The notes under the pieces are model-generated. The model was not told the DNA's origin. It ran no database searches and saw only the letters and a program-made list of their open reading frames with translations. The position numbers and the translations under genes are program-made. Positions 10,032-56,227 of a stretch of 64,000 nt of DNA are shown here, piece after piece; the first letter of the stretch is position 1; the number at the start of each line of letters is the position of its first letter. Origin of the DNA: Bacillota bacterium (GTDB lineage: Bacteria; Bacteroidota; Bacteroidia; Bacteroidales; Bacteroidaceae); the NCBI GenBank assembly GCA_023664625.1, contig JAMPFD010000003.1, positions 42,384-106,383 on the forward strand, written 5' to 3'.

Positions 10032-10141
10032 AAACCGTTACCTTTTGCAACACGAAAGGTAACGGTTTGACTAGTAAAAGACAACGATTTACCATATAAA
10101 GTGTGATGATTTACTATTCAAACCGTCACACTTTGCATTAT
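10032..10141. repeat. 22-bp array A1, five units
   Basis: Five consecutive units start at 10032, 10054, 10076, 10098 and 10120. The 14-nt cores are AAACCGTTACCTTT, GAAAGGTAACGGTT, then two degenerate units, then AAACCGTCACACTT. The 8-nt spacers all differ. Confidence 0.8.
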
Positions 10142-10445
10142 AATAACATGAGTTTCACCATATATCCCTGTACGACATGACATGAAAACAGTAAAAACAC
10201 GGTCAAAAAGCCCAAATTCTTCCCATTATGGTAAATAAAACATTAGAAAACCCATACAGAATTTTCCAACAGCCTGCAACTGCAGAAGACACATGGCACA
10301 CCGACGGAACAAGTATGGAACACAGCAACCACTTCCTCGAAACCATTTATAAGCAAAAAAAGACAAAACGATTAATAAATATCAATTAAAACTTATATTT
10401 TATTACAATATAGCAACAAATACGGTATTTTTGTTACAATATCAC

Positions 10446-10453
10446 TACCTTTG
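10446..10453 (+). promoter_or_regulatory. -7 box (TACCTTTG) for the BspA-like gene
   Basis: TACCTTTGC matches the consensus. It implies a 5' leader of about 165 nt, much longer than the 1-15 nt leaders of other genes here. Confidence 0.5.
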
Positions 10454-10622
10454 CGGGGTATTTCCGACATTATGTTCCGTCTTATCGCGGTGCCAGGACA
10501 AGAATGTTCTGCAAATACCCTGCATGACAGACACATGGCCCCTGTAACACTCCGCTGCGGCAGGCACCGACAAACAAGACCAAGCACTGCGAAAAGAAAC
10601 ACATCAAACAACTTTTAAGCGT

Positions 10623-12755
10623 ATGAAGAAATTTTTCATGCTTGCCGTTGCCGCCGTCGTTGCACTGTCAGCCACAGCAGCCAATGGTGTTCAGGATTTC
10701 GGCAAACTCTTGAGGAATGCCGACAGGCAGCTCAAGGCAAACACCCTCACCATGGGCACAAGTGCTCAGCCGGCAAAAGCAAAGAGACAGGCGTCGGCAA
10801 ACGCTCCGGAGAGCATCACGGGAAAGAGTTTCATCACTGTCTACAACGACAGCAAGAACAATTTCAACGGCTATTTCACTGTTGCCGCTGACGGCGACGG
10901 CATCATCCTCGAAGGATTTGCGAAAGGCTATGACATAAAGGCTTCTTATGATGCAGCGACAGGCATAATCACCATCCCCACAGGTGTCGTCATCGGCACA
11001 AGCCCCACTTACGGCGATATCACTCTCCATGCGCTTGACGCAGAGAGCAAGCATTACCTTGACTCTCCAATCACAGGAACAGTGGAAGGGAACAAAGTGG
11101 CTTTCAACTACGGTGTATACGGAAGCGTGGTCTATAACGGAGAGCAGAGCGGACTGATTTGGATGCAGGACATTGACACCCGGGAAGCTACCGGCAAGAT
11201 GTCATTCACATTACAAGGTTCAAAGTTCGAATGTCCGGTGATGGTTACCAAGACTGCGGAGAACACCCTCAACATAGTTGGTATGAACACTCTCTTCACA
11301 AACGGCTATTTCTACAACGTTCCTGTAACTTTCAACGCTGCGACAAAGGCTGCGACTCTAAAGACGGAGACTCCTGTAGGCCATGCCATAGCAACAAACG
11401 GCACAGGCGTGAAGAACATCTATTACATGTTCAGTGTAACAACTGACGGACTGGTACGCGACCCGGCTTTCACCATTGCCACAGCAGACGGCGCATCCAC
11501 AATCACAGCAAACAGCAATCTCTTCCTCGGATATGACGCAAACGGTGCCGGACAATACAGCGGATGGACTCTTGAAAGCTTCAAGTTCGAGGTTGACTGC
11601 AACATTCTTACACAGGAAGTGCAGGAGGATCCTTATGCCAGCCCTACCGCTGCTACCGTAGGCAACATAACATACAGCCTTGACAACGATGCCAACACCG
11701 CTGAAGTTACAGGCTGCCTCGGAAGCGTGAAAGACCTTGACATTCCTGCAACAATAACCGTCAAGGACAATACATACACCGTCACATCCATCGCGGAGAA
11801 GGCTTTCTACGGCAACCGCACACTGACAGCGGTACGCATCCCTGCCACAATAAAGACTGTAGGCCATGATGCTTTCCGCAAACTTGACAACCTCAACAGC
11901 CTCTACATAGCCGACCTTGAGGCATGGTGTGCCATCGATTTCTACAACGGCAACGCCAACCCGATCTACAACGTATTCCCTACAAGCACGAGCAAGTGGG
12001 GCAAGGTCTATGTAGACAACGTTGCAACAACGGAGATCGTCATCCCTGAGGGAGTGACAAAGATCGGACGCGCATTCTACGGCTTCAAGTCGCTGACAAG
12101 CGTGACGCTCCCTTCCACCCTGACAGAACTCGGCGACCAGACGTTCGCCAACTGTACAGGCCTGACAACAGTGACCATTCCTGAGAGCGTGGAGAAGATC
12201 GGCTCTTCATTCTGGGGCTGCGAGGGACTTACGGAAATCAGCATACCAGGAAGCGTGAAGACTCTTGGCAACAGCACCTTCTACGGATGCAAGGCGCTGA
12301 AGAGCATCAAACTCAGTGAAGGCATAGAGACAATCGGCAGCATGACATTCTCAGGATGCAGTGCCCTTGAGGCCATCACCCTCCCTTCAACAGTGAACGA
12401 AATCAAGATGATGGCTTTCTCGGATTGTAAAGGCATAAAGGAAATCACCTCTCTCAACACCGTTCCTCCTACATGTGCGGGAGACAGAATGTTCGAGGAC
12501 TTCCTCACAGCCACTCTCTTCGTGCCTGAGGCTTCAATGGACGCTTACAAGGCTGCGACAAGCTGGAAAGAGTTCACAACCGTAGAGGCTGTGAAGACTA
12601 CAGGCATAGAGACTGTCTGCGGCGAGAACGCTAACGGCAAGAAAGAGTATTTCAACCTCCAAGGCATGAAGGTTGCCGAGAACGAGCTCACTTCCGGCGC
12701 TTACATCGTGCGTGATGGTGCCAAGACAACCAAGGTGTATATCAACGCGAAATAA
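10623..12755 (+). CDS. Secreted BspA-like leucine-rich repeat surface protein
   Basis: The 710-residue protein begins with a signal peptide (MKKFFMLAVAAVVALSATAANG). Residues about 60-340 form a beta-rich region of unknown family. From about 370 to 630 there are some seven LRR_5/BspA repeats of about 23 residues, with the pattern I-x-x-x-A-F-x-x-C-x-x-L-x-x-I-x-I-P. The last 35 residues (YFNLQGMKVAENELTSGAYIV...KVYINAK) match the short C-terminal domain common on secreted Bacteroidales proteins. BspA-type proteins act in adhesion to host matrix or other bacteria; the ligand here is unknown. It is transcribed alone, with a terminator at 12810. Confidence 0.85.
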   Translation: MKKFFMLAVAAVVALSATAANGVQDFGKLLRNADRQLKANTLTMGTSAQPAKAKRQASANAPESITGKSFITVYNDSKNNFNGYFTVAADGDGIILEGFAKGYDIKASYDAATGIITIPTGVVIGTSPTYGDITLHALDAESKHYLDSPITGTVEGNKVAFNYGVYGSVVYNGEQSGLIWMQDIDTREATGKMSFTLQGSKFECPVMVTKTAENTLNIVGMNTLFTNGYFYNVPVTFNAATKAATLKTETPVGHAIATNGTGVKNIYYMFSVTTDGLVRDPAFTIATADGASTITANSNLFLGYDANGAGQYSGWTLESFKFEVDCNILTQEVQEDPYASPTAATVGNITYSLDNDANTAEVTGCLGSVKDLDIPATITVKDNTYTVTSIAEKAFYGNRTLTAVRIPATIKTVGHDAFRKLDNLNSLYIADLEAWCAIDFYNGNANPIYNVFPTSTSKWGKVYVDNVATTEIVIPEGVTKIGRAFYGFKSLTSVTLPSTLTELGDQTFANCTGLTTVTIPESVEKIGSSFWGCEGLTEISIPGSVKTLGNSTFYGCKALKSIKLSEGIETIGSMTFSGCSALEAITLPSTVNEIKMMAFSDCKGIKEITSLNTVPPTCAGDRMFEDFLTATLFVPEASMDAYKAATSWKEFTTVEAVKTTGIETVCGENANGKKEYFNLQGMKVAENELTSGAYIVRDGAKTTKVYINAK

Positions 12756-12809
12756 ATTTTCAGCCGGCAGTATCGGCTGAAACAGAAAACCGGAAAACAA
12801 TTGAAAACA

Positions 12810-12849
12810 GAGGCTACGCTGCGTAATTACAGTGTAGCCTCATTTTTTT
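12810..12849 (+). terminator. Rho-independent terminator after the BspA-like gene
   Basis: A 12-bp stem (GAGGCTACGCTG with CAGTGTAGCCTC, one G-T pair) is followed by a run of seven T. Confidence 0.88.
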
Positions 12850-12882
12850 ATCAATAAACTATTAGAGTCTTTATAATAAAAC

Positions 12883-13147
12883 AAGTAATTACTGGAAATC
12901 AGTTCATACTAAAACCGCAGTTGTTTTTTAGCGGTTAATGTGCGGAGCCGAAGGAGTAATGCAGGCATTGTGACCGAGTGACAACTTTCCCGACAAGCCA
13001 TACGGGCAGAGCGAAACTTATTTCAGCTATGACGCGGCAAGGGACAGTACGCCAAGCGTTGGCAAGCGAGCGCGCTAAGCGACAAAAAAAAGAGCAATAC
13101 TTAGCGAGAAAATATCATATTATAAAATAATTTTCAATAGTCACTCA
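12883..13147 (+). mobile_element. Long TIR element L1 (about 265 bp, non-coding)
   Basis: It starts with AAGTAATTACTGGAAATC and ends with ATAATTTTCAATAGTCACT, imperfect inverted ends of the same family as S1. The interior shares long stretches with element L2 at 22766-23096, such as GCGTTGGCAAGCGAG and GAGTGACAACTTT. No open frame of note and no transposase are present. Exact ends are approximate. Confidence 0.65.
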
Positions 13148-13272
13148 TTACTGATGTCCCGCAAAACAAGAAAGCCGGAATTAAAGATTCATTTCCCCGT
13201 ATAGCCTGAGGCATGTCGGGAACATCACGATTTTCAGGACAGACAAAACGAGTCTCTCCACTTACTCAAACA

Positions 13273-13313
13273 GCATTCCCCGAAGATTACTATCGTAAAC
13301 CTTCGGGGAATGC
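13273..13313 (-). terminator. Hairpin downstream of the TlpA-like gene
   Basis: A perfect 13-bp stem (GCATTCCCCGAAG and its complement) lies 18 bp after the stop codon on the minus strand. The T-run after it is weak, so termination is probable but not certain. Confidence 0.55.
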
Positions 13314-13331
13314 CGTTAATTTATGCCACTC

Positions 13332-13886
13332 TCATTCAAACGTCACGAGACGCTCTATCTCCTTACGCAGTCCATCGGCGGTGATTGCAGTGCCGCAGAC
13401 GGTACCGTCAGGGTCTATGATGAAGAAAGCCGGAATCCAGTTGAGCTGCCAGTTCTTGAACGTAGGGTCCTCACGAGTTCTCTTCAGATTGCTTATCTGC
13501 GGCCACGGGAAAGACTCTTTCCTCAGCATCTCCTTCCAAGCCTCAGCCCGGAAATCGAAGCTGAAGCTGAGCCATCTTAGGGCATAGCCGTTTGGATTCA
13601 TGCCCTTCACATCCTCATACAAGGCTTTCAGGGCAGGTATCTCCCGCCGGCAGTCGCCGCACCATGTCGCCCAGAAATCCACAACGACATACGAGCCTTT
13701 GAACCGAGCGAGGTCAATGACCACACCGAGAGTGTCCTTTCCTGACAGCCCCGGTGCTTTGTCCCCGGCTTTCAGCGTGGGAAGATATTTGGCAAGTTCC
13801 TCCTGTGTAGGCACGAACCTGTCCTGTGCCGCAGCCGTAAAGGCAGAGGAGAGGCACAGCAAAGCACATAAAAGAAGCTTTTTCAT
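13332..13886 (-). CDS. TlpA/ResA-like periplasmic thiol-disulfide oxidoreductase
   Basis: The 184-residue protein has a cleavable signal peptide (MKKLLLCALLCLSSAFTAAAQ) and a thioredoxin fold with the redox motif WCGDC (Cys76 and Cys79). The segment AGDKAPGLSGKDTLG before it is the usual AhpC/TSA-like strand, and WIPAFFIIDPDG contains the cis-proline loop. It should act in the periplasm as a reductant, for example for disulfides in secreted or c-type cytochrome proteins; the partner is unknown. It lies 29 bp downstream of dprA on the same strand. Confidence 0.85.
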   Translation of the reverse strand: MKKLLLCALLCLSSAFTAAAQDRFVPTQEELAKYLPTLKAGDKAPGLSGKDTLGVVIDLARFKGSYVVVDFWATWCGDCRREIPALKALYEDVKGMNPNGYALRWLSFSFDFRAEAWKEMLRKESFPWPQISNLKRTREDPTFKNWQLNWIPAFFIIDPDGTVCGTAITADGLRKEIERLVTFE

Positions 13887-13915
13887 TATCGTTTTTTTTA
13901 TTTTCGTTATACAGG

Positions 13916-15058
13916 TTACTTGATATTATTCCCCTGTTCATTAAGATGATACATACCACCTGCGTACGGCCTCACCATACCCTGCATCTCCAGTTCAAAG
14001 AGCAAGGCTGCGATTTTCCCTATCGGCAGTCCGCTCTTCAGGGATATCGTGTTCAGCTGTGTGTCGCCATCTCCCAGCACATCAACTATCTTCTGCTGCT
14101 CAGGCGACAGTTCCGGAAAGGCTTCAAGCTGCACGCCCTTCTTGCGTTCCGCATCCTGCCGCTGCACTGTCTGCCATCCGAGACCATCCACTATGTCACG
14201 GGCGGAGAGAAGAATGGCAGCCTTATTGTCGTGTATCAGTGAGTTGCAGCCCTCCGAGGCATCGTCGCCCACACGTCCGGGGAAGGCAAACACCTCACGG
14301 TTATAGTCATTGGCAAGGCGTGCCGTGACAAGACTTCCGCCATGAGCCTTCGACTCTGCCACAACGGTACAGTCGCCAAGTGCCGCCACAATGCGGTTGC
14401 GCCGCAGGAAATTATGTCTGTCGCAGCGCGTCCCTGACGGATATTCGCTGACGACACCGCCATGGGCAAGCATCTCTGCCGCTATGCCGCGGTGTGACGC
14501 AGGATACATGGTATCCAGCCCGTGCGCCACAACTCCCACGGTATCCGCGCCTGCCGCCAGCGCAGCCCGGTGGGCACAGACATCTATGCCGTAGGCAAGT
14601 CCGCTGAAAATCACCACATCGGGCACCATGGCTTTCAGATCACTGACAAGGCGTTCCACACAGTCCCTGCCATAGGCGGTATTCTGCCGTGTCCCCACAA
14701 TGGAGACGGCATGGCGCGCATTGAGGTCGGCCGAACCCAGGAAGAACAGCCCCACAGGAGCGTCAAGGCAGTTACGGAGACGCTGGGGATAGTCTTCATC
14801 CTCAGGACATAGGAAACTTATGCCTTTCTTCTCACACCATGCCAGTTCCTTTTCCGCCCAATGCAATGCCACGCTCCAGTCGGAAGCGAGCAAGGAGCAT
14901 AGCGCATCGGAGGCATCCGGCACCATGCTGCGGACATCATTACGGCAGGCATTAATCTCTTCTGCCGTCCCCGCAGCGGCATAAAGTTCCTTGGCTGTCT
15001 GAGGGAAGTTGAATGTCAGGCGCTGGAAAGCCAGTGCTTTCAGTCTGTATTCACTCAT
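13916..15058 (-). CDS. dprA: DNA-processing protein DprA
   Basis: DprA binds incoming single-stranded DNA during transformation and loads RecA. The 380-residue protein has an N-terminal helical extension, then the Rossmann-like DprA domain with SIVGTRQNTAYG, FSGLAYGIDVCAHRAAL, and VVAESKAHGGSLVTARLANDYNREVFAFPG, which are hallmark segments. A C-terminal winged-helix domain (DTQLNTISLKSGLPIGKIAALLFELEMQGMV) ends the protein. I start it at ATG 15058 (MSEYRLKALA), because the upstream ATG at 15094 lies inside the thioesterase gene; the resulting overlap is 8 bp, which suggests translational coupling. Confidence 0.93.
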   Translation of the reverse strand: MSEYRLKALAFQRLTFNFPQTAKELYAAAGTAEEINACRNDVRSMVPDASDALCSLLASDWSVALHWAEKELAWCEKKGISFLCPEDEDYPQRLRNCLDAPVGLFFLGSADLNARHAVSIVGTRQNTAYGRDCVERLVSDLKAMVPDVVIFSGLAYGIDVCAHRAALAAGADTVGVVAHGLDTMYPASHRGIAAEMLAHGGVVSEYPSGTRCDRHNFLRRNRIVAALGDCTVVAESKAHGGSLVTARLANDYNREVFAFPGRVGDDASEGCNSLIHDNKAAILLSARDIVDGLGWQTVQRQDAERKKGVQLEAFPELSPEQQKIVDVLGDGDTQLNTISLKSGLPIGKIAALLFELEMQGMVRPYAGGMYHLNEQGNNIK

Positions 15059-15479
15059 CGAGATACTTTGCAAAAGCCTTGTTGCACACTTCACTTTCTG
15101 CCAGCCTGCCGTTTATGAGACATACCACGTCCACCTGACTGCGGAAACACAGAGTGTCATTCTCCCGAGCTCCGTCAGCCAAGGTGCGCAGGCGGTAGAT
15201 GTCATGGAAGAAAATATAGCGCAGTCCCTCTTTTTTCAGACGGATACAGGAGCGGAACTCGTCATCCGGACGCAAAGGAGACTTGTACTGGAGGTTCATG
15301 CGCGCCACGACGAAGTCTTCGCCTTTCGTGTGCATCTCTGAGAAGGATATTCCGCAATGCTGCAGGAACAGGTGGCGCGTATGCTCCGTATAGTGCAGGT
15401 AATTGGCGTTGTTCACGATGCCCTGGATATCGCATTCGTAGTCACGCACCTGCATGATGGTTTCATAATGGTATTTCAT
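15051..15479 (-). CDS. Hotdog-fold acyl-CoA thioesterase (YbgC/4HBT type)
   Basis: The 142-residue protein is a single hotdog domain. VRDYECDIQGIVNNANYLHYTEHTR carries the acidic residue and the D-x-Q-G-x-V-[NH]-N-A-x-Y motif of the 4-hydroxybenzoyl-CoA/YbgC thioesterases. It should hydrolyse acyl-CoA or acyl-ACP thioesters in the cytoplasm; the chain length cannot be deduced. It precedes dprA with an 8-bp overlap, an arrangement seen in other Bacteroidales. Confidence 0.85.
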   Translation of the reverse strand: MKYHYETIMQVRDYECDIQGIVNNANYLHYTEHTRHLFLQHCGISFSEMHTKGEDFVVARMNLQYKSPLRPDDEFRSCIRLKKEGLRYIFFHDIYRLRTLADGARENDTLCFRSQVDVVCLINGRLAESEVCNKAFAKYLDE

Positions 15480-15819
15480 TTGGTTTTATCAAGTTTGCAT
15501 CAGTACTGAGGAAATGATATTGTCATAGCATTCTTAATGAAGCCCTATCCCTTTGACATACAGGCATATACACCTGCAACACACTCTTCCGGCAATAATG
15601 CGGGAACAGAACGCATATCAAAAGGTAACGGTTCACTGTGTCAAAGGTTACCTTTTACAGTGTGAAAGATAACCTTTTATGGGACAAAAGGTAACCTTCT
15701 GTTTTTCCGTCCGCTGCCATGGGATAAGACTGCTGCCTGTACGGTGTCCGGCAGTCATGACGTTCCCTTGCGGGAAGCACGGCCATTGGCATGACTCTCA
15801 TACATGGCCGGCACTACTG
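15480..15819. other. Intergenic region with 22-bp array
   Basis: It holds array A2 (15620-15707) and a small inverted repeat CGGCCAT/ATGGCCG (15780-15810) just after the stop of the LOG-family gene. Nothing else is recognised. Confidence 0.6.
15620..15707. repeat. 22-bp array A2, four units
   Basis: Units start at 15620, 15642, 15664 and 15686. Cores are AAAAGGTAACGGTT, CAAAGGTTACCTTT, GAAAGATAACCTTT and AAAAGGTAACCTTC, each followed by a different 8-nt spacer. Confidence 0.85.
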
Positions 15820-17702: not shown

Positions 17703-17756
17703 CACAAATACTTTATTCAAAGTAGTCTACTTATTTATTTTTAAAATAACATTAAT

Positions 17757-18905
17757 ATGAAAAAAATCGCAATGTTTGTTGCTGCCGCTGCGATAGCAGC
17801 TTCAGCAAGCGCACAGAGAACTGTGGTTACAGCTTCTAAGGCTACAGACAACATCTATGTTGGTATCAATGCCGGTGTTGCTGCTCCAACAACACACCAC
17901 TCTGTGTTCGGAAACCTCTCTCCTGAGCTGGGTGTACGCGTTGGCAAGAACTTCACAACCGTATTCGGTCTCGCAGTTGACGCTACAATGCACTTCTCAT
18001 CCATGCCATCTGAGTTCAACACAAAGACTTGGGTTGACAACACAAACATCTCTCTCCTCGGTACTGCAAACCTCTCTAACCTCTTCGCAGGATACAAAGG
18101 CGAGCCACGTACATTCGAGGTAATCGCCCTCGGCGGTTTCGGATGGGATCACACATACGGCATCGAAGAGAAGGCTAACGCCCTCACATCAAAGGTTGCC
18201 CTTGACTTCGCTCTTAACCTCGGCAAGAACAAGGCATGGCAGGTTTACCTCGAGCCATCCCTCACTTACGGTCTCAACGGCTGGGGTGACGCTGTCAGCG
18301 ATGACAACATGAAGTACGACATCAACTGCTCAGGCATGGCTCTTAAGCTTGGTGTGAACTACAAGTTCGGTACATCTAACGGCACACACAACTTCGCTGT
18401 CGAGCAGCTCCGTGACCAGGCAGAGATTGACGCTCTCAACGCACAGATCAATGCCGCACGTTCTGAGGCTGACGCTGCAAAGGCCGCTGCCGCTAAGAAG
18501 GACGCAGAGATCGCTCGTCTTAAGAAGGCTCTCTCTGACTGCGAGAACAAGCCGGCTCCTGTCGTAGAGACAAAGGCTGCCAATCTCCAGCCAAACGTAG
18601 TGTTCGCTCAGGGCAAGGCTGTTGTTGAAAAGCACCAGATGTCTAACGTTGAGATGATCGCTAAGTACATGAAGAAGTACCCGGAGGCTAAGATCAAGAT
18701 TTCCGGCTATGCATCACCTGAAGGCTCTAAGGAGTTCAACCAGAAGCTTTCCGAGAAGCGTGCTGCTGCCGTTAAGGACGTTCTCGTTAAGAAGTACAAG
18801 ATTGCAGCTGACCGTCTTGAGACAGAGGGTCTTGGCGCAACTGACAAACTCTTCGACGAGGTTGAGTTCAACCGTGTTGCTCTCTTCAATGACACAACAA
18901 AGTAA
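17757..18905 (+). CDS. OmpA-family outer membrane protein (tandem copy 1)
   Basis: The 382-residue protein has a signal peptide (MKKIAMFVAAAAIAASASAQ), an N-terminal beta-barrel of about 200 residues, a coiled-coil linker (about 222-262, DQAEIDALNAQINAARSEA) and a C-terminal OmpA-like peptidoglycan-binding domain. In that domain GYASPEGSKEFNQKLSEKRA replaces the usual GHTDxxGxxxYNxxLSxxRA, so the conserved Asp is missing while the Arg is kept. It pairs with a second copy downstream, like the two OmpA-like porins Pgm6/Pgm7 of Porphyromonas gingivalis. Codon use is strongly biased to GCT/GTT/AAG, which suggests high expression. Confidence 0.88.
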   Translation: MKKIAMFVAAAAIAASASAQRTVVTASKATDNIYVGINAGVAAPTTHHSVFGNLSPELGVRVGKNFTTVFGLAVDATMHFSSMPSEFNTKTWVDNTNISLLGTANLSNLFAGYKGEPRTFEVIALGGFGWDHTYGIEEKANALTSKVALDFALNLGKNKAWQVYLEPSLTYGLNGWGDAVSDDNMKYDINCSGMALKLGVNYKFGTSNGTHNFAVEQLRDQAEIDALNAQINAARSEADAAKAAAAKKDAEIARLKKALSDCENKPAPVVETKAANLQPNVVFAQGKAVVEKHQMSNVEMIAKYMKKYPEAKIKISGYASPEGSKEFNQKLSEKRAAAVKDVLVKKYKIAADRLETEGLGATDKLFDEVEFNRVALFNDTTK

Positions 18906-18928
18906 TATAAAATAATTATTTGCGCATG

Positions 18929-18966
18929 GAGGGTTTCTTTGAAAAAATAAAGAAACCCTCTATTAT
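18929..18966 (+). terminator. Hairpin between the two OmpA-like genes
   Basis: A perfect 12-bp stem (GAGGGTTTCTTT and its complement) is followed by TATTATT. The second gene starts only 20 bp later and no -7 box is visible between them, so this may act as a partial terminator or an mRNA-stabilising hairpin. Confidence 0.7.
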
Positions 18967-18986
18967 TAATTACTAAAGAACTCTAT

Positions 18987-20165
18987 ATGAAAAAACTTAC
19001 AATGTTTGTTGCTGCAGCTGCGATAGCAGTATCAGCAAACGCCCAGAAGACGACCGTCACAGGTCACAAGACATTTGACAACATCTATGTTGGTGCAAAC
19101 TTTGGTGCCTCTTCCCCTATCACAGGCAACAATATGTACAACATGGAGCATGACAAAGCATTCAAAGAGTTCAATGGAAAACTTGGTATCCGTGTCGGAA
19201 AGCATATCACTTCCGTATTCGGACTGGCAATCGAAGGTGAGGCGTACAAGTCATTCAAGAAAGACTATGCCTTCCTTGGCTCAAAGACTTTTGTGAACTC
19301 TGTTGACGTAAACCTCCTCTCAACCTGGAACCTCAACAATATTTTCGCAGGTTACAAGGGAGAGCCACGTGCATTCGAGGTATTTGCTATCGCAGGTGCC
19401 GGCTATGGACACGTATTCGGAGCGAACGGATTCAGCGACATTCACGCAAAGGTCGGTCTTGACTTTGCCTACAACTTCGGCAAGAATAAGGAATGGCAGG
19501 TTTATCTTGAGCCGTCACTCCGCTACTTCCTCTCTGAGACATCAAGAACAAAGACAACAGTGGACAACCGCTTTGACTTTAACATCAATAATGCAACCCT
19601 ACAGCTTTCCGTAGGCGTAAACTACAAATTCAAGAATTCCAACGGCACACATAACTTCGCAATCGAACAGGTTCGTGACCAGGCAGAGTTTGATGCTCTC
19701 AATGCACAGATTAATGCCACACGTTCAGAAAATAACGCTGTCAAGGCTGAGAATGAAAGCCTGAAGGCTGAAAACGCAAGACTCAGAAAGGCTCTCTCTG
19801 ACTGTGAGAACAAGCCGGCTGTCACAGAGACAAGCAATGCAAATCTCCAGCCATCTGTAATCTTTGCCCAAGGCAAGTCTCTTGTCCAGAAGTCTCAGAT
19901 GCCTAACATCGAGATGATTGCAAAATACATGAAGAACAATCCTGACGCAAGAATCAAAATCTCCGGCTACGCATCACCGGAAGGCTCAAAGGCATTCAAC
20001 CAGAAGCTCTCCGAGAAACGTGCTGACGCTGTCAAGAGCATACTCGTAAAGAAGTACAATATTGACGCTGACCGTCTTGAGACAGAGGGTCTTGGCGCAA
20101 CTGACAAGCTTTTCGATGAGGTTGAGTTCAACCGCGTTGCGATCTTCAACACTACAACGAAGTAA
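18987..20165 (+). CDS. OmpA-family outer membrane protein (tandem copy 2)
   Basis: The 392-residue paralogue of the preceding gene has the same layout: signal peptide (MKKLTMFVAAAAIAVSANAQ), barrel, coiled-coil linker rich in Glu/Lys/Asn, and OmpA-like domain. The C-terminal domain is almost identical to copy 1, including a stretch of about 41 identical bases, whereas the barrel has diverged. The pair probably forms hetero-oligomers that anchor the outer membrane to peptidoglycan, as known for Pgm6/Pgm7. It is probably expressed by read-through from the first gene and ends in a strong terminator. Confidence 0.88.
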   Translation: MKKLTMFVAAAAIAVSANAQKTTVTGHKTFDNIYVGANFGASSPITGNNMYNMEHDKAFKEFNGKLGIRVGKHITSVFGLAIEGEAYKSFKKDYAFLGSKTFVNSVDVNLLSTWNLNNIFAGYKGEPRAFEVFAIAGAGYGHVFGANGFSDIHAKVGLDFAYNFGKNKEWQVYLEPSLRYFLSETSRTKTTVDNRFDFNINNATLQLSVGVNYKFKNSNGTHNFAIEQVRDQAEFDALNAQINATRSENNAVKAENESLKAENARLRKALSDCENKPAVTETSNANLQPSVIFAQGKSLVQKSQMPNIEMIAKYMKNNPDARIKISGYASPEGSKAFNQKLSEKRADAVKSILVKKYNIDADRLETEGLGATDKLFDEVEFNRVAIFNTTTK

Positions 20166-23096: not shown

Positions 23097-23156
23097 ACAG
23101 GAAGTCAACTCTTTCCGCAATCCATTGATTCTCAAAGAGAGAAGAAAAGACAAAAC

Positions 23157-23244
23157 AAAAGGTAACACTTTGCATTACGAAAGGTAACCTTTTATGTTGT
23201 AAAGTGTTACCTTTCACAAGACAAAAGGTAACACTTTATACTTT
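23157..23244. repeat. 22-bp array A3, four units
   Basis: Units start at 23157, 23179, 23201 and 23223. Cores are AAAAGGTAACACTT, GAAAGGTAACCTTT, AAAGTGTTACCTTT and AAAAGGTAACACTT, showing three half-site types (AGG, GTG and their complements). Confidence 0.85.
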
Positions 23245-27903: not shown

Positions 27904-27991
27904 AAAAGGTTACGGTTCGCACCACAAAAGGTTACGGTTCATACTGTAAAAGGTTACGGTTTACAACGTAAAAGGTAATGATTTGTTTTAC
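27904..27991. repeat. 22-bp array A4, four units
   Basis: Units start at 27904, 27926, 27948 and 27970. The first three cores are identical (AAAAGGTTACGGTT) and the fourth is AAAAGGTAATGATT. This array shows most plainly that the core is fixed and the 8-nt spacers vary. Confidence 0.88.
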
Positions 27992-28116
27992 AAAGCACAA
28001 CCCTCTGATATTCAAAGAAATAAGAAAACAAAAAAGTTCCGGTAGACATTTAGGCCGGAATTATAGCCTCCATGTCCGCCGGAACCTGTTTATTATTGTC
28101 CTATAATATTGTCACA

Positions 28117-34408: not shown

Positions 34409-34536
34409 GTCAACGTGAAGCTGATGAATCCGGCACAAGAAAGCACGCCGTATCACACTTCTCATCTGCTTGATATACAATAACATGCGTAAAGCTATAG
34501 GCTTTTTACGAATCAGCATGTAAGGATGGCAATAAC

Positions 34537-34624
34537 GAAAGGTTACGATTGACAGGGTGAAAGGTAACGGTTCGCACCATAAAAGGTAACGGTTGACCAT
34601 GTAAAGTGTTACCTTTTGTTCATA
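34537..34624. repeat. 22-bp array A5, four units
   Basis: Units start at 34537, 34559, 34581 and 34603. Cores are GAAAGGTTACGATT, GAAAGGTAACGGTT, AAAAGGTAACGGTT and AAAGTGTTACCTTT. The array ends 15 bp before the AAA-ATPase fragment. Confidence 0.85.
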
Positions 34625-35394: not shown

Positions 35395-35504
35395 AAAGTG
35401 TTACCTTTCGCAGAACGAAAGGTAACACTTCGCAATGTAAAAGGTAAGGGTTGACAACATAAAAGGTCACGGTTCATAAATAGAGCCGTGACCTTTTACC
35501 GTAT
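35395..35504. repeat. 22-bp array A6, five units
   Basis: Units start at 35395, 35417, 35439, 35461 and 35483. The last two (AAAAGGTCACGGTTC and GAGCCGTGACCTTTT) are complementary and form a 15-bp hairpin 66 bp after the infB stop, so this array may double as the infB terminator. Confidence 0.83.
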
Positions 35505-42312: not shown

Positions 42313-43251
42313 TTATGTCACCTCCTTCCTTACGGGCACGGACGGCATGAGGGACTGCTTGCGGACATATTCGTCAAGCTTCCCCCTGACATACGCTTCC
42401 AGCTCCGGGCTGTCAATAATGTCTACATGGTCATACAGCCCGAGGACAAACCTTCCGATGCCGAGCATCGAGCATACTTCCGTGGACAGAATCCAGCGGC
42501 CGCCTTCCTCCGCGATGTCATGCTCCGCACGCGGATACTCTTCGATGAGCACATGATATGCCAGCTGATCCATGCTGATACTCACCCTTGTGAGCGTCTC
42601 CGAGGCGAAATTGAAATAGTCATTGAACATCTGACGGTGACGGGCGGCGTGGGACCACTCCTCGTCAAGCATCTCGACATCCTCCATACGCGAGACGCGG
42701 AAGGTCTTGTTAATGCCTGACCGTGGCTCATAGGCACGCAAGTCTCGGCCTCCGTTCATCAGCAGGAACGGCTCAACCTTCCTGTCCGTGACGGAATTGG
42801 AATGAGAGGAGGAATAGCCGCGGATGGAAAGGACACGGCGGAGCTTTATCGCCTCGTATATCTTGCTCGCCACCTGTGCCTGATGGCGGCGCACTGGGTC
42901 GTTCTCGATGATGTCAAAGTCATAGAACCGCGACAGCTTCTGCTTCACGGAGCGTATCACGGCACTCCTGTCATCGGCTCCGTCAAGCAGCAGTTTCAGC
43001 ATCACCGCCTCGTCTTCCGTGAACTTCACTATGTCACAGAGACGCGAGATAAATTTCGACTGGCGCGAGATACTGTAGTACTGTCCGTGCTTTACCAGAC
43101 CGAAGTCGGCTCCCTTGAAGAACTCAAGGTAGTAATAGAGATTGCGGCGGCCTGTGTCAAGACGCTCGCACATCTGCTCTACGGTCCACTGCCTGTTCTC
43201 GGTGAGCATAAGGAGAAGCTCGAGCTGCAGTCCCAGTTTGTCGTGGCGCAT
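42313..43251 (-). CDS. WYL-domain transcriptional regulator
   Basis: The 312-residue protein starts at ATG 43251 (MRHDKLGLQLELLLMLTENRQWTVEQMCERL), a winged helix-turn-helix, and continues with a WYL domain (about 120-200) and a C-terminal extension (WCX-like). WYL proteins bind nucleic-acid-type ligands and regulate DNA repair, phage defence or stress genes. The longer upstream frame is rejected because a -7 box lies at 43376-43383 and the HTH begins at this ATG. No defence genes are adjacent. Confidence 0.82.
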   Translation of the reverse strand: MRHDKLGLQLELLLMLTENRQWTVEQMCERLDTGRRNLYYYLEFFKGADFGLVKHGQYYSISRQSKFISRLCDIVKFTEDEAVMLKLLLDGADDRSAVIRSVKQKLSRFYDFDIIENDPVRRHQAQVASKIYEAIKLRRVLSIRGYSSSHSNSVTDRKVEPFLLMNGGRDLRAYEPRSGINKTFRVSRMEDVEMLDEEWSHAARHRQMFNDYFNFASETLTRVSISMDQLAYHVLIEEYPRAEHDIAEEGGRWILSTEVCSMLGIGRFVLGLYDHVDIIDSPELEAYVRGKLDEYVRKQSLMPSVPVRKEVT

Positions 43252-43375
43252 AACGTTTGTTCTGCTTTTGTGTGAGTAAGTGGTTCCGGCGGCATGACGG
43301 ATGCCGGTTCTCCCCGGCCCTCTCCGCTGACGCATGACAGAAGAAATGCACGGCAGGGCAAGAGACTTTGAATGG

Positions 43376-43383: not shown

Positions 43384-43640
43384 CTGATTTTTTCTGTATT
43401 TCTGACGGCTTTTGTATTTTTTATGATTTCCTTTTCATAAACCGTACGCACTGCTCCGCATCGTGCCGCACTGCCTTTCCATGAAAGGGAAAGATGCGGA
43501 CAGGAGAGATTTTTCCTGAAGGACAGAGGCATGAGTGCTGATGCAACCCGATAAAGACCGGACGATCCGGAGCATATTGCCACAAGATTCTCAAAGCCTT
43601 GGCCACCAGCCTGTTTCAGAGGCATATCTTTCCGGCTTTC

Positions 43641-43728
43641 AAAAGGTTACCTTTTGTGGTGCAAACCGTTACCTTTCACCATGCGAAACGTTACCTTTTG
43701 CAGGATAAAACGTTACCTTCCGTTTTTG
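43641..43728. repeat. 22-bp array A7, four units
   Basis: Units start at 43641, 43663, 43685 and 43707. Cores are AAAAGGTTACCTTT, AAACCGTTACCTTT, GAAACGTTACCTTT and AAAACGTTACCTTC. Confidence 0.85.
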
Positions 43729-47563: not shown

Positions 47564-47576
47564 CAGTCCCGTGAGA

Positions 47577-50497: not shown

Positions 50498-50521
50498 ACC
50501 TTATTTATGTTTAAGTTGCCA

Positions 50522-50529
50522 CAAAGTTA
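50522..50529 (-). promoter_or_regulatory. -7 box (TAACTTTG) for the acyl-CoA ligase and prfB
   Basis: The minus strand reads GTAACTTTGTGG. The leader would be about 20 nt. Confidence 0.5.
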
Positions 50530-50573
50530 CAATCTTTTTCCGAAAATGAAGAATAAAAAAGGAAACTTTTTAC

Positions 50574-50581
50574 TAACTTTG
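50574..50581 (+). promoter_or_regulatory. -7 box (TAACTTTG) for the M20 deacetylase
   Basis: TAACTTTGC lies 16 bp before ATG 50598, back to back with the divergent promoter. Confidence 0.6.
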
Positions 50582-50597
50582 CACCAAAACACCTATA

Positions 50598-51665: not shown

Positions 51666-52085
51666 GATTTCATGAGAGAATACAATTCCTGACGGAACAG
51701 CTTCACATGCAAAAATAATGACGGAACAGCTTCACGGCAGCTGATTCCAACATCATGTGCAACGATTGAGAACCGCGCATGCAACCGCCCGGTTTTCAGC
51801 CACCGGAAAACCGCCTGACAAAAGGTGACGGTTTATGTTGCGAAAGGTAACCTCTCATACTGTCAAAGGTAACCTTTCATTATGCAAAAGGTAACCTTTG
51901 ACAAAACAATGTAGCACAAAGCGGCCATGCACGGGAGACAGGAAGAAGCACAGCCGGCATGACATGAAAAGGAAAAGAATCACCTGTTTTGATGCCAAAC
52001 AAGAAAAAAAATGAAAAAAAAACGCATCTGCCTGTAACTTTTCTCCTGCACAATCGTCTTCTGTATAGACAAGGCAAAAAAATAC
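51666..52085. other. Intergenic region of 420 bp with array A8
   Basis: It contains array A8 (51820-51907) and no visible gene or clear promoter. Confidence 0.6.
51820..51907. repeat. 22-bp array A8, four units
   Basis: Units start at 51820, 51842, 51864 and 51886. Cores are AAAAGGTGACGGTT, GAAAGGTAACCTCT, CAAAGGTAACCTTT and AAAAGGTAACCTTT. Confidence 0.85.
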
Positions 52086-52580
52086 ATGATGGACTATAAG
52101 TACATAGAACAGTTGCTTGAGCGTTACTGGGAATGCCGGACGACGCTCGAAGAGGAAGCAATCCTGCGCGCATTCTTCGCCCAGGAGAATGTCCCTGTGG
52201 AACTGTTGCAGTACCGCGGACTCTTCGCCGCACAGAGCGGAGAGCAGAAGCAGGTCAGAATCTCTGACGATTTTGACGAGCGTATCCTTGCCGTCATCAA
52301 TGATGAAAAGCCGGTAAAGGCACGCACCATAACGCTTTCACAACGTCTGAGCCCACTCTACCGCGCCGCAGCAGTCGTGGCAATTACCCTCACCCTCGGC
52401 ACGGCAGCACAGAAAGCCACAGAGCCGACAGACTCTCCCTACCCGTCCTTGACGGTCAAAGAGCCTGCAATCAGCACCGGTCCTTCCGTGGCAGTGAAAG
52501 ACAGTGTGAAGTCTGACTCCATAAAATTCGAGGGACAGCACTCACGTCTCCAGAACGTGCCGGAGATGATCATCAAATAA
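52086..52580 (+). CDS. Anti-sigma-factor-like single-pass membrane protein
   Basis: The 164-residue protein has an N-terminal acidic helical region (MMDYKYIEQLLERYWECRTTLEEEAILRAFFAQ), a probable membrane helix near 92-108 (LYRAAAVVAITLTLGTAA) and a periplasmic Ser/Thr/Pro-rich tail. The N-terminal pattern (LLxRYWxCxTTLEEExxLxxFF) is common to Bacteroidales proteins encoded next to ECF sigma factors, suggesting an anti-sigma role. No sigma factor gene is adjacent here, so it appears orphaned. It is followed by a terminator at 52653. Confidence 0.65.
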   Translation: MMDYKYIEQLLERYWECRTTLEEEAILRAFFAQENVPVELLQYRGLFAAQSGEQKQVRISDDFDERILAVINDEKPVKARTITLSQRLSPLYRAAAVVAITLTLGTAAQKATEPTDSPYPSLTVKEPAISTGPSVAVKDSVKSDSIKFEGQHSRLQNVPEMIIK

Positions 52581-52652
52581 GATATTTTCTAAGCTTTCCA
52601 TATAAAAACAAAACAATCTATTAAAACACTACTCTAATAAACACCCTATAGA

Positions 52653-52683
52653 AAAGGACCGACAGTGATGCCGGTCCTTTTTC
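52653..52683 (+). terminator. Rho-independent terminator
   Basis: The stem AAAGGACCG/CGGTCCTTT is followed by TTTC, about 70 bp after the anti-sigma-like gene. Confidence 0.75.
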
Positions 52684-52953
52684 TCGTCCCCCAACCGGAC
52701 ATTGGAATCTTGCATGATTCCAAGGCTTTTGCCAAATGGCTTCCCGGCTTCTTTACAGGAGTATGGCAGGGACATACGAATAAAGAGAAACAGAAAAGGC
52801 ACAGACAACTCCTAAAAAACAAAGAGACACGGCTATGCAGAAATTCCATGGGAACCACAGCATGACCATGTATGCCCGGCAATAAGTCCCGGCGTATAGC
52901 CACCGCATAGGCGGTTCAATACCATAGCAAAACACCAATAATATGTAAAAATG

Positions 52954-52984
52954 TTGCATTTGTAGAAGAAAAACAGTACCTTTG
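52954..52984 (+). promoter_or_regulatory. Promoter: -33 TTG and -7 TACCTTTG
   Basis: TACCTTTG (52977-52984) is preceded after 20 bp by TTG (52954-52956), a good Bacteroidetes promoter. It serves the chimeric TPR/DUF3244 gene, with a leader of about 95 nt. Confidence 0.65.
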
Positions 52985-53084
52985 TACCCAGAAAAGGAAA
53001 GCAGCCTGACTGTGTAAAACCCGCAACGGCCTATTATCGGCACGGCACACATAAACAGGCAAAAGTATACTCCCCCAGCCTGAG

Positions 53085-54125
53085 ATGACCTGCAAAAGAC
53101 TACTGTCGCCATTGAAAATAACCGTCGCTCTGATTATTGTGACAGCGGCGCTGTTATTTGTAATGCCATACGGAAAAGAGCGCATGGCAACACTGCTCAC
53201 CCGGGCCGAGCAGATGAACTCCGGCTATATTCCAATGGACACCGTGACTTTCATGGATGAAGTCCTCGGTTTCTATAACTCCCACGGCACGGCGGAAGAG
53301 AGAATCCGGGCAAACTATATGAAAGGCTGCGTCCTGCGCGACAAGGGCGACAGCCCCACGGCCATGGAGTATTACATGAAAGCCGTAGCCCTTGCCGACA
53401 CCGCCGACCGGACATGCAACTTTGAACTGCTGGGCAGAATATACGCCCAGATGGCTGAGCTGTTCCATAAACAACGCTATCCGCAGAAAGAACTTGAGAT
53501 GTGGAACAACGCAATCAGCATGGCAAAGAAAGCACAGGATACACTGATGTACGCAGAACACCTTGCTCACTCTGCAGAAATGTATGAATTTCTTGGAAAC
53601 AAGAATAAAGCAAGGAAAACAATAGAAAACGCTTATTCACTATACAACAATATCGGGAAGAAGAAATATGCCGCAGGTCTGTTGGCTATAATGGCATCAT
53701 ACGATTTGGAGCGTGGCTCCATACAAAGTGCGAAACAGAAGACAGACAGATACATCGGTGTATTGCTTCTAAGCGGAACGATTAATATACCGGCTGACGG
53801 CATCACTTCGACACAGCAGGATATGGACAATGTCCGTATAGAACTGCATTGTTCCTGGATTCCGCCCTACTCATCCCAGTATCCTATACGCAGGTCTCCC
53901 GCAAAACGTCCCGTAGCATACCTGTCAGGCGAGACCGTCTCTTTCCCTGCATTCACGGGCGGCTGCACGCTTGAACTGGTGGACGCCTCCACAGAGGAAG
54001 TCGTATACAGTCAGCATATCCCTGCGTCTGAGACAAGCTGCACGCTGCCGTCAGACATGAAAGGCGAGTATATCCTCCGCTTCACATTCGAGCAATATAC
54101 GCTGGAAGGGTATGTGGAGTTATAA
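53085..54125 (+). CDS. Chimeric protein: TPR sensor fragment fused to a DUF3244 domain
   Basis: The 346-residue product combines two unrelated parts. Residues 1-222 have an N-terminal membrane anchor (about 10-27) and TPR helices (AEERIRANYMKGCVLRDKGDSPTAMEYYMKA and further units) like those of large Bacteroidetes TPR sensor proteins, which normally continue for several hundred residues. Residues 224-238 (IGVLLLSGTINIPADG) resemble the end of a signal peptide, and 250-346 match DUF3244, a small secreted beta domain normally exported by its own signal. The junction lies near residue 223. I read this as an in-frame fusion by deletion; whether it functions is unknown. Confidence 0.7.
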   Translation: MTCKRLLSPLKITVALIIVTAALLFVMPYGKERMATLLTRAEQMNSGYIPMDTVTFMDEVLGFYNSHGTAEERIRANYMKGCVLRDKGDSPTAMEYYMKAVALADTADRTCNFELLGRIYAQMAELFHKQRYPQKELEMWNNAISMAKKAQDTLMYAEHLAHSAEMYEFLGNKNKARKTIENAYSLYNNIGKKKYAAGLLAIMASYDLERGSIQSAKQKTDRYIGVLLLSGTINIPADGITSTQQDMDNVRIELHCSWIPPYSSQYPIRRSPAKRPVAYLSGETVSFPAFTGGCTLELVDASTEEVVYSQHIPASETSCTLPSDMKGEYILRFTFEQYTLEGYVEL

Positions 54126-54165
54126 AAAATCAAGTATCTATTAAGTTAAAACATTATCAACCTTT

Positions 54166-54223
54166 TCGTTAAGCCAGATGAGCAGAACGAAACTTGTTTC
54201 GGTTCTGCCATGGCAAGAAAAGG
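54166..54223 (+). repeat. Fragment of the long TIR element interior
   Basis: The stretch containing GAAACTTGTTTCGGTTCTGC and GGCAAGAAAAGG matches the middle of L2 (around 22890-22930) and L1. No terminal repeats remain. Confidence 0.5.
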
Positions 54224-54256
54224 TAGAAAGAAATTCAACAAAAAAAAACTTATCAC

Positions 54257-55438
54257 ATGAAATACACATTCCTTTTATTGTTCGCAGCTATTCTTCTTGT
54301 AGCCTGCAGCGATGATTTGTCCGCTCCGGATGTCAGCGAAAGCAACGAACTTTGTTATTTAGGTTATGTTCCAAAGGGAGTGCCTGAGGAAATACACCTT
54401 TCAAATGGGCTGACAGTCTACATGGACGTTGACAGCACATTCTTTTGGGGAGATGTTATTTTCTCAAAAGACCAGATAAGGGCATTCAGCACCTCCACCA
54501 GACGTCGCTCCGCCGCAGTGAAGGCACGTGTGAAATACTGGCCTGACAAGACCATTTATTATAACATTTCCTCAGACTTCGACTCTTATGACCAATCAAC
54601 TATCAGAACGGCATTGAGCAATCTCAGCACTCATACAGGCATAAACTTCATTGAGTCATCCTCCTGCCCTCAAAGGCATTTGGAATTTCATGTGTCCAAT
54701 GGCAATAGTTCTTATATAGGTATGCAAGATGATGGTAATGTCATAAACCTTGCCCGCTACCAGCCTGTAGGAGTTGCCATGCATGAAACAATGCATAGCC
54801 TGGGATATTTTCATGAGCAGTCAAGAACAGACAGAGATCAATATATAACTGTCTATTTTGAAAATATCGAAAATGACAAGAAGTCTAATTTTCATACTTA
54901 TCAAGAAGATGGCTATGAAGGATTCAATATTGGTGATTTTGATTATAACTCCATAATGATGTACGGCTCTGGGCATTTCTCGGCAAACGGTCAATATACA
55001 ATGAAGAGAAATGACACGATGAACAGCTATGGCGGCGGATATATCTATGCAAACAGAACAGCACTTTCAGAGGGAGACATAGCAGGACTTTACTTTATAT
55101 ATGGCCCCACAAAAGCAGTCAATAAAAGGGAAGTCATTGACGAATATTCAACCCTTGACTGCCAAGACATTACATATTCCAATACTGTCAGCTTCCTTGA
55201 CAGCAACGGTGAGCCTGTCGTGCTGAAATACCCGAGACTCATAGTAGCCGAATATGAATACTACCACCAACGGGCAGGAGACTCTTATGAGTACAAAACC
55301 GCATACACTTGTTATTTTACAGCACCGGCAGGTGTCAGTTCATACTCGCTTCCCACCACAAACTATTATTATGAGGAAGAAGGATATGGCATTTTCAGAC
55401 AATCATTTCACGACTACTATTCTATATTCAACTATTAA
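54257..55438 (+). CDS. Astacin-type (M12A) zinc metallopeptidase lipoprotein
   Basis: The 393-residue protein has a lipoprotein signal with lipobox LVAC (Cys17), so it should be anchored in the outer membrane or exported to the surface. The catalytic domain (about 88-285) shows the astacin signature HETMHSLGYFHEQSRTDRD with His176, Glu177, His180 and His186, and the Met-turn SIMMYG with Tyr236 as fifth ligand. About 100 residues follow, ending in Tyr-rich strands (YYHQRAGDSYEYKTAYTC) of unknown fold. The pro-region before residue 88 is short. It probably cleaves host or dietary proteins; the substrate is unknown. A small DUF4377 lipoprotein gene follows after 15 bp. Confidence 0.88.
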   Translation: MKYTFLLLFAAILLVACSDDLSAPDVSESNELCYLGYVPKGVPEEIHLSNGLTVYMDVDSTFFWGDVIFSKDQIRAFSTSTRRRSAAVKARVKYWPDKTIYYNISSDFDSYDQSTIRTALSNLSTHTGINFIESSSCPQRHLEFHVSNGNSSYIGMQDDGNVINLARYQPVGVAMHETMHSLGYFHEQSRTDRDQYITVYFENIENDKKSNFHTYQEDGYEGFNIGDFDYNSIMMYGSGHFSANGQYTMKRNDTMNSYGGGYIYANRTALSEGDIAGLYFIYGPTKAVNKREVIDEYSTLDCQDITYSNTVSFLDSNGEPVVLKYPRLIVAEYEYYHQRAGDSYEYKTAYTCYFTAPAGVSSYSLPTTNYYYEEEGYGIFRQSFHDYYSIFNY

Positions 55439-55453
55439 ACAATCTACTCAATC

Positions 55454-55816
55454 ATGAAAACAAAAATCAGTTTATTGTTCCTTCTGTTGTGTTCCGTCTT
55501 CATTCTGTCATCATGCAGCAATGACGATGATGACGATTCCACAGCAGTTACAATTTATGTGTCAGCAACAACAGGGACATACGAGATATTCGGTGGTGAC
55601 AGGCTCGAAGGTATGCGGATACGTGAAGAGGGAAGCACACGATGGAATTGTGTCCGCTTCGACCTCATATCGGGCTTTACTTACGAAAAAGGCAAAGCAT
55701 ACATACTGAGGGTCATGAAGACGAGAATCAGCAACCCACCACAGGATGACGCAGAAATGCATGAGTACAGACTGATAAGACAGCAGGTTGTGGAGGACAC
55801 ATCCGGTTGGGAATAA
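55454..55816 (+). CDS. DUF4377-like lipoprotein
   Basis: The 120-residue protein has a lipoprotein signal (MKTKISLLFLLLCSVFILSSC, Cys21) followed by an Asp-run (SNDDDDDS). The rest (CVRFDLISGFTYEKGKAYIL...EMHEYRLIRQQV) fits DUF4377, a small beta domain related to META/HslJ-type proteins. It lies 15 bp after the astacin gene and is likely co-expressed with it; whether it inhibits, chaperones or tethers that peptidase is untested. Confidence 0.72.
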   Translation: MKTKISLLFLLLCSVFILSSCSNDDDDDSTAVTIYVSATTGTYEIFGGDRLEGMRIREEGSTRWNCVRFDLISGFTYEKGKAYILRVMKTRISNPPQDDAEMHEYRLIRQQVVEDTSGWE

Positions 55817-56227
55817 CGGCATAGCTCCGTCGGATTTACGCTAAATACAAACCATATTCCGTTCTGATAAGTTTTCAAGAAAATCAGCAACATAAGTCAG
55901 TCAACAGGTTCAATCCCGAACCGGTCATTAAAACGCACCATGTATTCTTTGTTGCTTTCTTGTATGCTTGTCTGTATTCTTTTTGTCTTTTTCCGTTCAT
56001 GGCAACATATATGAAAAAACAAAAGGTAACCTTTCGCAGTGTGAAAGGTTACCTTTTACATTGTCAACCGTTACCTTTTACAACATGAAAGGCAACGGTT
56101 TGCCATATTATATTCCTATCCTCTGCAACATACTCTTATACAACGCATTACAAACAATGACATTTCTCCGTCTCTTCGTCGTGGGAATAAACTCCCGAAG
56201 CGATGCCGGACGGATTCCGCAAAGCCG
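55817..56227. other. Convergent intergenic region with array A9
   Basis: It holds array A9 (56021-56108). No terminator with a good T-run was found for either flanking gene. Confidence 0.5.
56021..56108. repeat. 22-bp array A9, four units
   Basis: Units start at 56021, 56043, 56065 and 56087. Cores are AAAAGGTAACCTTT, GAAAGGTTACCTTT, CAACCGTTACCTTT and GAAAGGCAACGGTT. Confidence 0.85.

Follow-up and report, generated by a model that had tools for sequence, protein, structure and literature searches.

Intergenic arrays of 22-bp palindromic units and a phased 27-bp palindrome: a very probable relative of PINSR with a proposed chromosome-structuring role

The closest described counterpart of the repeats reported here is PINSR, an intergenic, non-coding repeat of 188 bp from Prevotella intermedia. 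According to the parts of its description drawn on here, two strains carry 177 and 184 copies, about three-quarters of the places are conserved between strains, the repeat also occurs downstream of tnaA, it was detected by polymerase chain reaction only in four related species, and its function is unknown (PMC4755523). In the literature that we found, neither a structure nor a function has been proposed for PINSR-type repeats. We analyzed a window of 64,000 nucleotides (by which we mean the whole stretch of DNA under consideration) from a gut bacterium with a genome of the Prevotella/Palleniella type, deposited as Bacillota bacterium and assigned by GTDB to the Bacteroidaceae (assembly GCA_023664625.1, contig JAMPFD010000003.1, positions 42,384 to 106,383 of the forward strand), in which a preliminary description had noted nine intergenic arrays of short palindromic units. 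PINSR is very probably the same kind of element as these arrays, so that the earlier statement that no dedicated description exists was partly wrong. On balance, we favor the reading that the arrays are the bodies of dispersed, non-coding PINSR-like elements, which would be filled by protein to give a phased complex with a chromosome-structuring or insulating role and would be kept by selection in some lineages.

All nine arrays were found where they had been placed, and none of them is assigned to a strand. Six consist of four units each (15620..15700, 23157..23237, 34537..34617, 43641..43721, 51820..51900, and 56021..56101). The five-unit arrays at 10032..10134 and 35395..35497 are composed of two inverted pairs (units 1-2 and 4-5) with unit 3 standing single, and they fold accordingly as pair, single, pair. 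In the ninth array (27904..28006), four strong units extend up to position 27984 and a fifth follows with a score of 3.5; the first three of its units are near-identical direct copies and are not inverted. The reported number of four or five units per array therefore stands, except that the fifth unit of this last array is weak. The proposed partition of the unit into a 14-nt core and an 8-nt spacer had to be replaced: the unit consists of a 15-bp palindromic core (RAAAGGTWACCTTTY; RAAAGGT-W-ACCTTTY) and a 7-nt gap of the form RYNNNRY, and two dyads thus lie 11 bp apart in each 22-bp unit. The exact unit length, by contrast, was borne out by the spacing of core matches (score >8) in a 464-kb sample made up of the window and 400 kb more of the same genome. 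Neighboring cores were 22 bp apart in 75 cases, followed by spacings of 44, 66, and 88 bp; there were no spacings of 21 or 23 bp in this sample, and the off-period pairs amounted to one at 1 bp and one at 111 bp. Thirty arrays were called in the 464 kb (18 with four units, five with five, two with three, and five with two), compared to zero in five mononucleotide shuffles of the same DNA. Loci of Palleniella intestinalis picked by a two-unit pattern possessed four units in 20 of 20 cases.

A genome-wide pattern search demonstrated that the arrays are not restricted to the window, so that their absence elsewhere in the genome, named in the preliminary description as a refutation, was not borne out. 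The strict one-core pattern had 246 matches in the 2.87-Mb genome and 0 when the pattern was reversed. The number of arrays per genome is extrapolated to 150-190, with the array-rich window excluded from the lower estimate. The elements are distributed along the chromosome in G010 and, for at least the copies listed, in G131. With gene calls from a home-made coding-score caller, none of the 30 arrays overlapped a called gene by >20 bp, although two touched one by 2 and 20 bp, which upholds the intergenic placement originally described; among loci from several genomes, 6 of 171 arrays overlapped a called open reading frame (ORF) by >20 bp. A cruder gene caller assigned different gap types to several arrays and flagged small ORFs over some. 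The restriction to codirectional and convergent gaps is valid for the window but not for the 464 kb, where the array gaps comprise 17 tandem, 8 convergent, and 5 divergent ones, near the proportions of the background gaps of at least 150 bp (98, 23, and 24, respectively). Twenty-two of the 30 arrays are more than 100 bp away from both flanking genes, and the neighboring genes are mixed, with housekeeping genes among them (IF-2, RNase HII). The near-background gap types and the mixed neighbors argue against a control of particular genes. This candidate role was rejected, although in distant lineages the homologue was also array-adjacent for 4 of 7 array-adjacent genes versus 4 of 28 others (p 0.03), since upstream and downstream positions are mixed and the comparison within Palleniella yielded 2 of 6 versus 3 of 19 (p 0.56).

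Conserved bases in the array flanks reach to about position -38 and resolve into a second, 27-bp palindrome, GTAACN3YTGATWATCARN3GTTAC. Seven of the nine window arrays have a match scoring >9, and five of these score >12. The latter candidates, which like the arrays carry no strand assignment, are located at 23117..23143 (centre 27 bp from the array edge, score 12.9), 27997..28023 (26 bp from the edge of the four strong units, score 17.1), 34462..34488 (62 bp, score 12.7), 43591..43617 (37 bp, score 14.9), and 56125..56151 (37 bp, score 16.4); weak candidates are present at 9968..9994 (51 bp, score 10.2) and 15545..15571 (62 bp, score 11.4). The distance from the palindrome centre to the array edge clusters at 14-15, 26, 37, and 48-51 bp, corresponding to steps of about 11.3-11.5 bp (Rayleigh R 0.89, n=102), and this phasing was retained outside the lineage on which the palindrome matrix had been trained (R 0.86, n=44). 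Steps of about 11 bp would be expected where two proteins make contact on double-stranded DNA, and RNA offers no reason for them. Palindrome matches >9 are also enriched near arrays in the non-training lineages. In the 464 kb of the source genome, 22 such matches are no more than 120 bp from an array and 63 are farther away (whole-sequence shuffle, 42); the corresponding numbers are 25 near and 39 far in P. intestinalis and P. muris (shuffle, 17), and 14 near and 19 far in the other non-training lineages (shuffle, 22).

The strict core is plentiful in only a few genomes of the genus, as a two-unit strict-core pattern matched 6 of 398 genus genomes, the source genome included. Carriers in a scan of named genomes were Palleniella muris, P. 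intestinalis, and Prevotella bivia, to which uncultured Prevotella and Prevotellaceae assemblies and one contig labelled only Bacteroidetes can be added. Plasmid and phage records contained no match to locus L182 of G012, and viral contigs had three two-unit matches. Among the pairs found, orthologous arrays are common to the source genome, P. muris, and P. intestinalis, so that the suggested check of syntenic conservation had a positive outcome. Five pairs of P. muris and P. intestinalis arrays showed substitutions at 9 of 314 core sites as opposed to 210 of 1883 flank sites (Fisher p 4e-7), i.e., the core changes about four times slower than the flank in Palleniella. A sixth, identical pair (L072/L130), which sits in a 5-kb stretch of 98.7% identity, was excluded. 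This stretch, which holds the array and a gyrB-like gene while other array flanks differ by about 11%, may reflect either a recent exchange or a mislabelled contig. Eight other pairs were attempted, and four of them did not align by this method. The window array at 56021 has four units at the orthologous place in P. muris (L103), with 1 of 60 core and 9 of 321 flank differences; three pairs of uncultured assemblies gave 4/59 versus 72/489, 5/45 versus 44/465, and 4/45 versus 63/378 (core versus flank). Slowly evolving cores are hence clear in Palleniella, but not in every pair elsewhere. A comparison of spacer letters (best shuffled agreement about 16.7 of 21) mostly gave no sign of recent array copying within a genome; near-duplicates were seen in one metagenome-assembled genome (L079/L128 with 20 of 21 and L074/L134 with 19 of 21 letters alike), and in the source genome the window array at 51820 and L029 share 18 of 21.

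At the level of sequence, the element has a defined architecture with a 22-bp period, a stepped distance, conservation within Palleniella, and the same architecture built on other cores. It is bipartite and usually offers four palindromic 22-bp sites, i.e., eight 11-bp half-sites of alternating orientation, along with one 27-bp palindrome on the same face of the helix as the array sites. We propose that the array is filled, side by side on one face of the DNA, by a protein that recognizes its sequence, probably as a winged-helix dimer, and that would form a compact complex with a second protein at the 27-bp palindrome. Winged-helix and WYL binding are drawn on here by analogy. Such a complex would tolerate differences in position and gene orientation, and this tolerance makes a chromosome-structuring or insulating role likelier than the control of particular genes. 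The copies probably spread long ago by some mobility mechanism and would now be kept by selection in some lineages. Of the options raised in the preliminary description, binding sites for a DNA-binding protein are best supported, given the phasing of the palindrome, the slow cores in Palleniella, and the intergenic position.

The connection to PINSR is provided by genome G131, which carries an intergenic repeat of about 190 bp. This repeat combines the palindrome with four 22-bp units and terminates in imperfectly inverted ends (TGTAAAGATAATTC...GAAAAATATTTACA among the copies aligned), which were seen only in G131. A strict fragment pattern detected 198 copies (104 forward, 94 reverse), one of which is located about 230 bp downstream of a tryptophanase-like (tnaA-like) gene. 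We regard this repeat as the probable PINSR. Seventeen of 20 copies (L239-L247) could be parsed, and unit 1 was the inverted partner of unit 3 in 15 of them and of unit 2 in two. The two unit types, A and B, swap places among these copies (A+B-A- in 10, B+A-B- in 5, and A+A-B- in 2), and unit 1 retains an inverted partner.

Many genomes of the same genus without the GGTWACC core still possess the palindrome, and 22-bp arrays of other palindromic cores adjoin it. When we proceeded from the palindrome outward, 43 of 59 sites in 18 genus genomes adjoined an array with a 22-bp period, compared to 23 of 600 windows drawn at random, a set that is not free of elements; a site was scored positive when the top-ranking lag was 22 and gave 34 or more matches out of 66. 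These sites are not independent, as G012 supplies 20 of the 59 and eight of those are alignable copies of one element. An extension of the palindrome to the whole order was dropped: matches occurred in 65 of 149 genomes (with a reversed-pattern control uncorrected for codon use), but 22 was the best lag at 0 of 9 sites in G454 and G498, and several of these sites look by eye like coding DNA. Near-identical copies of the palindrome near contig ends in G487 (L256-L258) and G462 (L260-L262) suggest a longer repeated element in other families; no element gene was seen in the stretches around them. A dispersed element in G174 (L302, L303, L305) has the 27-bp palindrome with few or no 22-bp units, and this genome has no WYL match.

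The most serious competing explanation, which we rate as rather improbable, is a worn, purely selfish element resembling a miniature inverted-repeat transposable element (MITE) without any host function, in which the array and the palindrome would be sites of a lost or trans-acting transposase or integrase. It draws on the eight alignable, dispersed copies of an element of about 430 bp in G012, seven of them closely similar by eye, and on the 198 G131 copies with their imperfect inverted ends; moreover, phased multi-site ends are used by several recombination systems. The similar copies in G012 do make a past spread by mobility likely, and to that extent the mobilizing enzyme envisaged earlier may retain a place, although RAYT (PF01797), the Y1 transposase classically tied to palindromic extragenic repeats, has no match in the source genome (G000) and was rejected for it. 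Twenty of 38 genomes searched possess a PF01797 protein; there was also no match in G060, G125, and G172, while G010, G065, and G053 have one or two. Against a purely selfish element stand the constrained cores at fixed places in Palleniella and the finding that arrays are mostly not recent copies of one another. In addition, gene calling on three closely related G012 copies and their flanks (L211, L215, L216) placed no gene inside the element, the best direct-repeat signal (z 3.9 among 196 offset pairs) gives no clear target-site duplication, and near the source-genome arrays the end motif of G131 and G012 had 0 matches and the upstream box 1 of 18.

Hairpin pairs that serve as bidirectional terminators or stabilize mRNA ends constitute a second alternative, and one that we consider quite unlikely. 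Its basis is the tendency of units 1-2 and 3-4 to be inverted partners. In 66 four-unit arrays of uncultured Prevotella, these pairs are reverse-complementary above chance (z 6.1 and 6.9) and units 2-3 below it (z -2.6); the respective values are 1.6, 4.1, and -3.9 in 26 arrays of P. intestinalis and P. muris, and a weak 1.8, 1.6, and -1.1 in 27 arrays of the source genome. Across 123 arrays, one pair tends to be near the consensus and the other diverged (pair difference 3.49 versus 2.23 when shuffled, z 7.6). However, the covariation resides mainly in the outer nine positions of each unit pair while the inner arm positions covary little, and the idea of two hairpins with full 15-bp arms was modified for this reason. 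For some arrays of the window, the predicted folding is much more favorable than that of shuffled sequences (z -5.9, -6.5, -8.8, -9.0), but the range over the nine arrays is -0.6 to -9.0, with the array at 27904 at its upper end. A strand-specific structured RNA was rejected on the grounds that G.U mismatches are about as frequent as A.C mismatches (102 versus 113) and that both types are mixed within arrays, same-type mismatch pairs amounting to 117 of 236 (null expectation, 117.7). This lack of a strand bias implies that the pairing of units takes effect in the DNA or stems from conversion among inverted units, though it is also compatible with the use of both strands. Rfam covariance models detected only a tRNA in the window and nothing at E<=1 in 14 loci. 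Taken together, the lack of an Rfam match for the arrays, the lack of strand bias, and the uneven folding scores speak against the structured RNA that had been considered. The arrays do not show the stable, strand-specific hairpin near gene ends that marks an intrinsic terminator; 5 of 30 are in divergent gaps, and the distance of most of them from both neighboring genes, already mentioned, is likewise at odds with such a function. Furthermore, an RNA structure would have no need of hairpins spaced at exactly 22 bp, or of a second palindrome reached in 11-bp steps.

A third alternative is a site of recombination or resolution, with the 27-bp palindrome as the crossover site and the array as accessory sites in the manner of cer/psi and resolvase res sites. 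The core-like palindrome and the accessory sites are indeed separated by whole helical turns, which would suit this reading, yet it is very improbable. With 100-200 copies of a fully palindromic, strongly conserved centre, one would expect the chromosome to be scrambled; the orthologues found in Palleniella have stayed in place, and no recombinase was present among the 20 window proteins scanned (neighbors of copies in other genomes were not family-scanned).

Several observations weigh against the protein-filled, phased complex that we favor. The inverted pairs covary down to rare bases, which goes beyond a simple binding-site model and makes them look like products of base pairing or of conversion between units. 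The window arrays at 35395 and 51820 have no palindrome match >9, and other matches are weak. Since the palindrome matrix was trained beside the arrays of one lineage, the near/far contrast in that lineage (52 matches near arrays versus 3 elsewhere at scores of at least 16) is partly circular. Three of the 22 near matches in the source genome fall partly within the array, their centres being 4 bp from its edge. The cores of the L075/L114 pair are not slower than their flanks (5/45 versus 44/465), and slow evolution is in any case a sign of constraint that says nothing of its cause. The match between the G131 repeat and PINSR is one of size, copy number, intergenic location, and tnaA as a neighbor, and not one of consensus letters. 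Finally, no array-binding protein was identified.

More tentatively, and with a probability that we put at about one in four, the elements may represent a genus-wide chromosome-organizing system of Prevotella, consisting of an anchor palindrome and a phased four-site array whose sequence is rewritten by lineage, with a fast-evolving binder, possibly a WYL protein, that co-evolves with up to about 200 sites per genome. The WYL-domain protein encoded at 42313..43335 on the minus strand of the window is a weak candidate for the array-binding protein. A WYL protein was encoded by all 14 genomes that at first counted as array- or palindrome-positive and, with G003 and G004 added, by 16 of 16 positive genomes versus 10 of 20 others, plus one weak match. 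Sites with a 22-bp array numbered 41 of 53 in WYL-positive and 2 of 14 in WYL-negative genomes, although these sites are not independent and G017 was left out. Any strict palindrome match occurred in 43 of 70 WYL-positive versus 15 of 40 WYL-negative genomes (p 0.018), and the element was found at the WYL locus in 6 of 10 matched genomes versus 4 of 40 flanks, the flanks being shorter (2.55 kb versus about 4 kb). However, the element is present at 15 of 26 WYL loci overall, and plain 4-kb windows of genomes rich in the element carry it in 23 of 45 (G131), 8 of 16 (G012), and 23 of 85 cases (source genome). At least five palindrome matches were found in 12 of 70 WYL-positive versus 4 of 40 WYL-negative genomes (p 0.40); G127 and G174 lack a WYL protein yet have one site each with a 22-bp period, and the WYL-negative genomes G307, G397, and G167 possess five to eight palindrome matches. 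Two G396 sites were excluded as too near a contig end. In most of the 26 loci, the WYL gene adjoins an apparent rnhB gene, a placement as expected of a core gene.

Other features of the examined DNA can be mentioned briefly. Some intergenic gaps with arrays also contain other dispersed repeats, about 50-190 bp long and up to 100% identical over 52 bp, whose distance and orientation relative to the array vary (flank of the window array at 35395; G000:C11 near 17918; G000:C1 near 25569). The window also encodes two OmpA-family outer-membrane proteins in tandem (17757-20165) and an astacin-family (M12A) metalloprotease (54257-55438), whose gene is flanked by a TPR gene and a DUF4377 gene.

The anatomy of four phased 22-bp palindromes and an anchor palindrome provides a testable protein-binding model for repeats of this type. 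Through it, a repeat of limited clade range would be tied to a family found across the genus, and it would offer a natural case in which many binding sites change their sequence together while their geometry stays fixed. Compared to known systems, the arrays differ from clustered regularly interspaced short palindromic repeats (CRISPR), whose near-identical repeats are separated by unrelated long spacers; here the cores vary and the 7-nt spacers share a pattern, as the earlier dismissal of CRISPR anticipated. Repetitive extragenic palindromes (REP) and their composite forms BIME and REPIN resemble the arrays as short palindromic extragenic repeats of high copy number, often in inverted pairs, but do not have exact 22-bp arrays of about four units with a phased second palindrome; the lack of a RAYT match in the source genome agrees with the view that the arrays do not fit REP/BIME. 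In the parts of the respective reports drawn on here, the BrickBuilt MITE of Porphyromonas gingivalis is likewise a Bacteroidetes element with short tandem units within dispersed copies, but it has spacerless 23-nt repeats, a leader and a tail, and 19 forms in one strain (PMC4596501), in contrast to 22-bp units with RYNNNRY spacers. The TAACTGA repeats of five Bacteroidetes also form many small intergenic sets of unknown function, but are direct heptamer repeats, most of which immediately precede start codons in the focal genome (PMC4679880). No description of the inner architecture, i.e., of phased 22-bp units with a palindrome, was found in the open-licence literature searched, and the parts of the PINSR description drawn on here make no mention of 22-bp units or a second palindrome (PMC4755523). 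The arrays differ from the G131 repeat in their cores and ends. They are like PINSR in being dispersed, intergenic, non-coding, and of high copy number, and the pairs found among the source genome, P. muris, and P. intestinalis display a PINSR-like conservation of place among close relatives. The source arrays are a real, divergent PINSR-like element with a proposed function, and they share with the G131 repeat, the probable PINSR, the precise architecture of four 22-bp units and a 27-bp palindrome.

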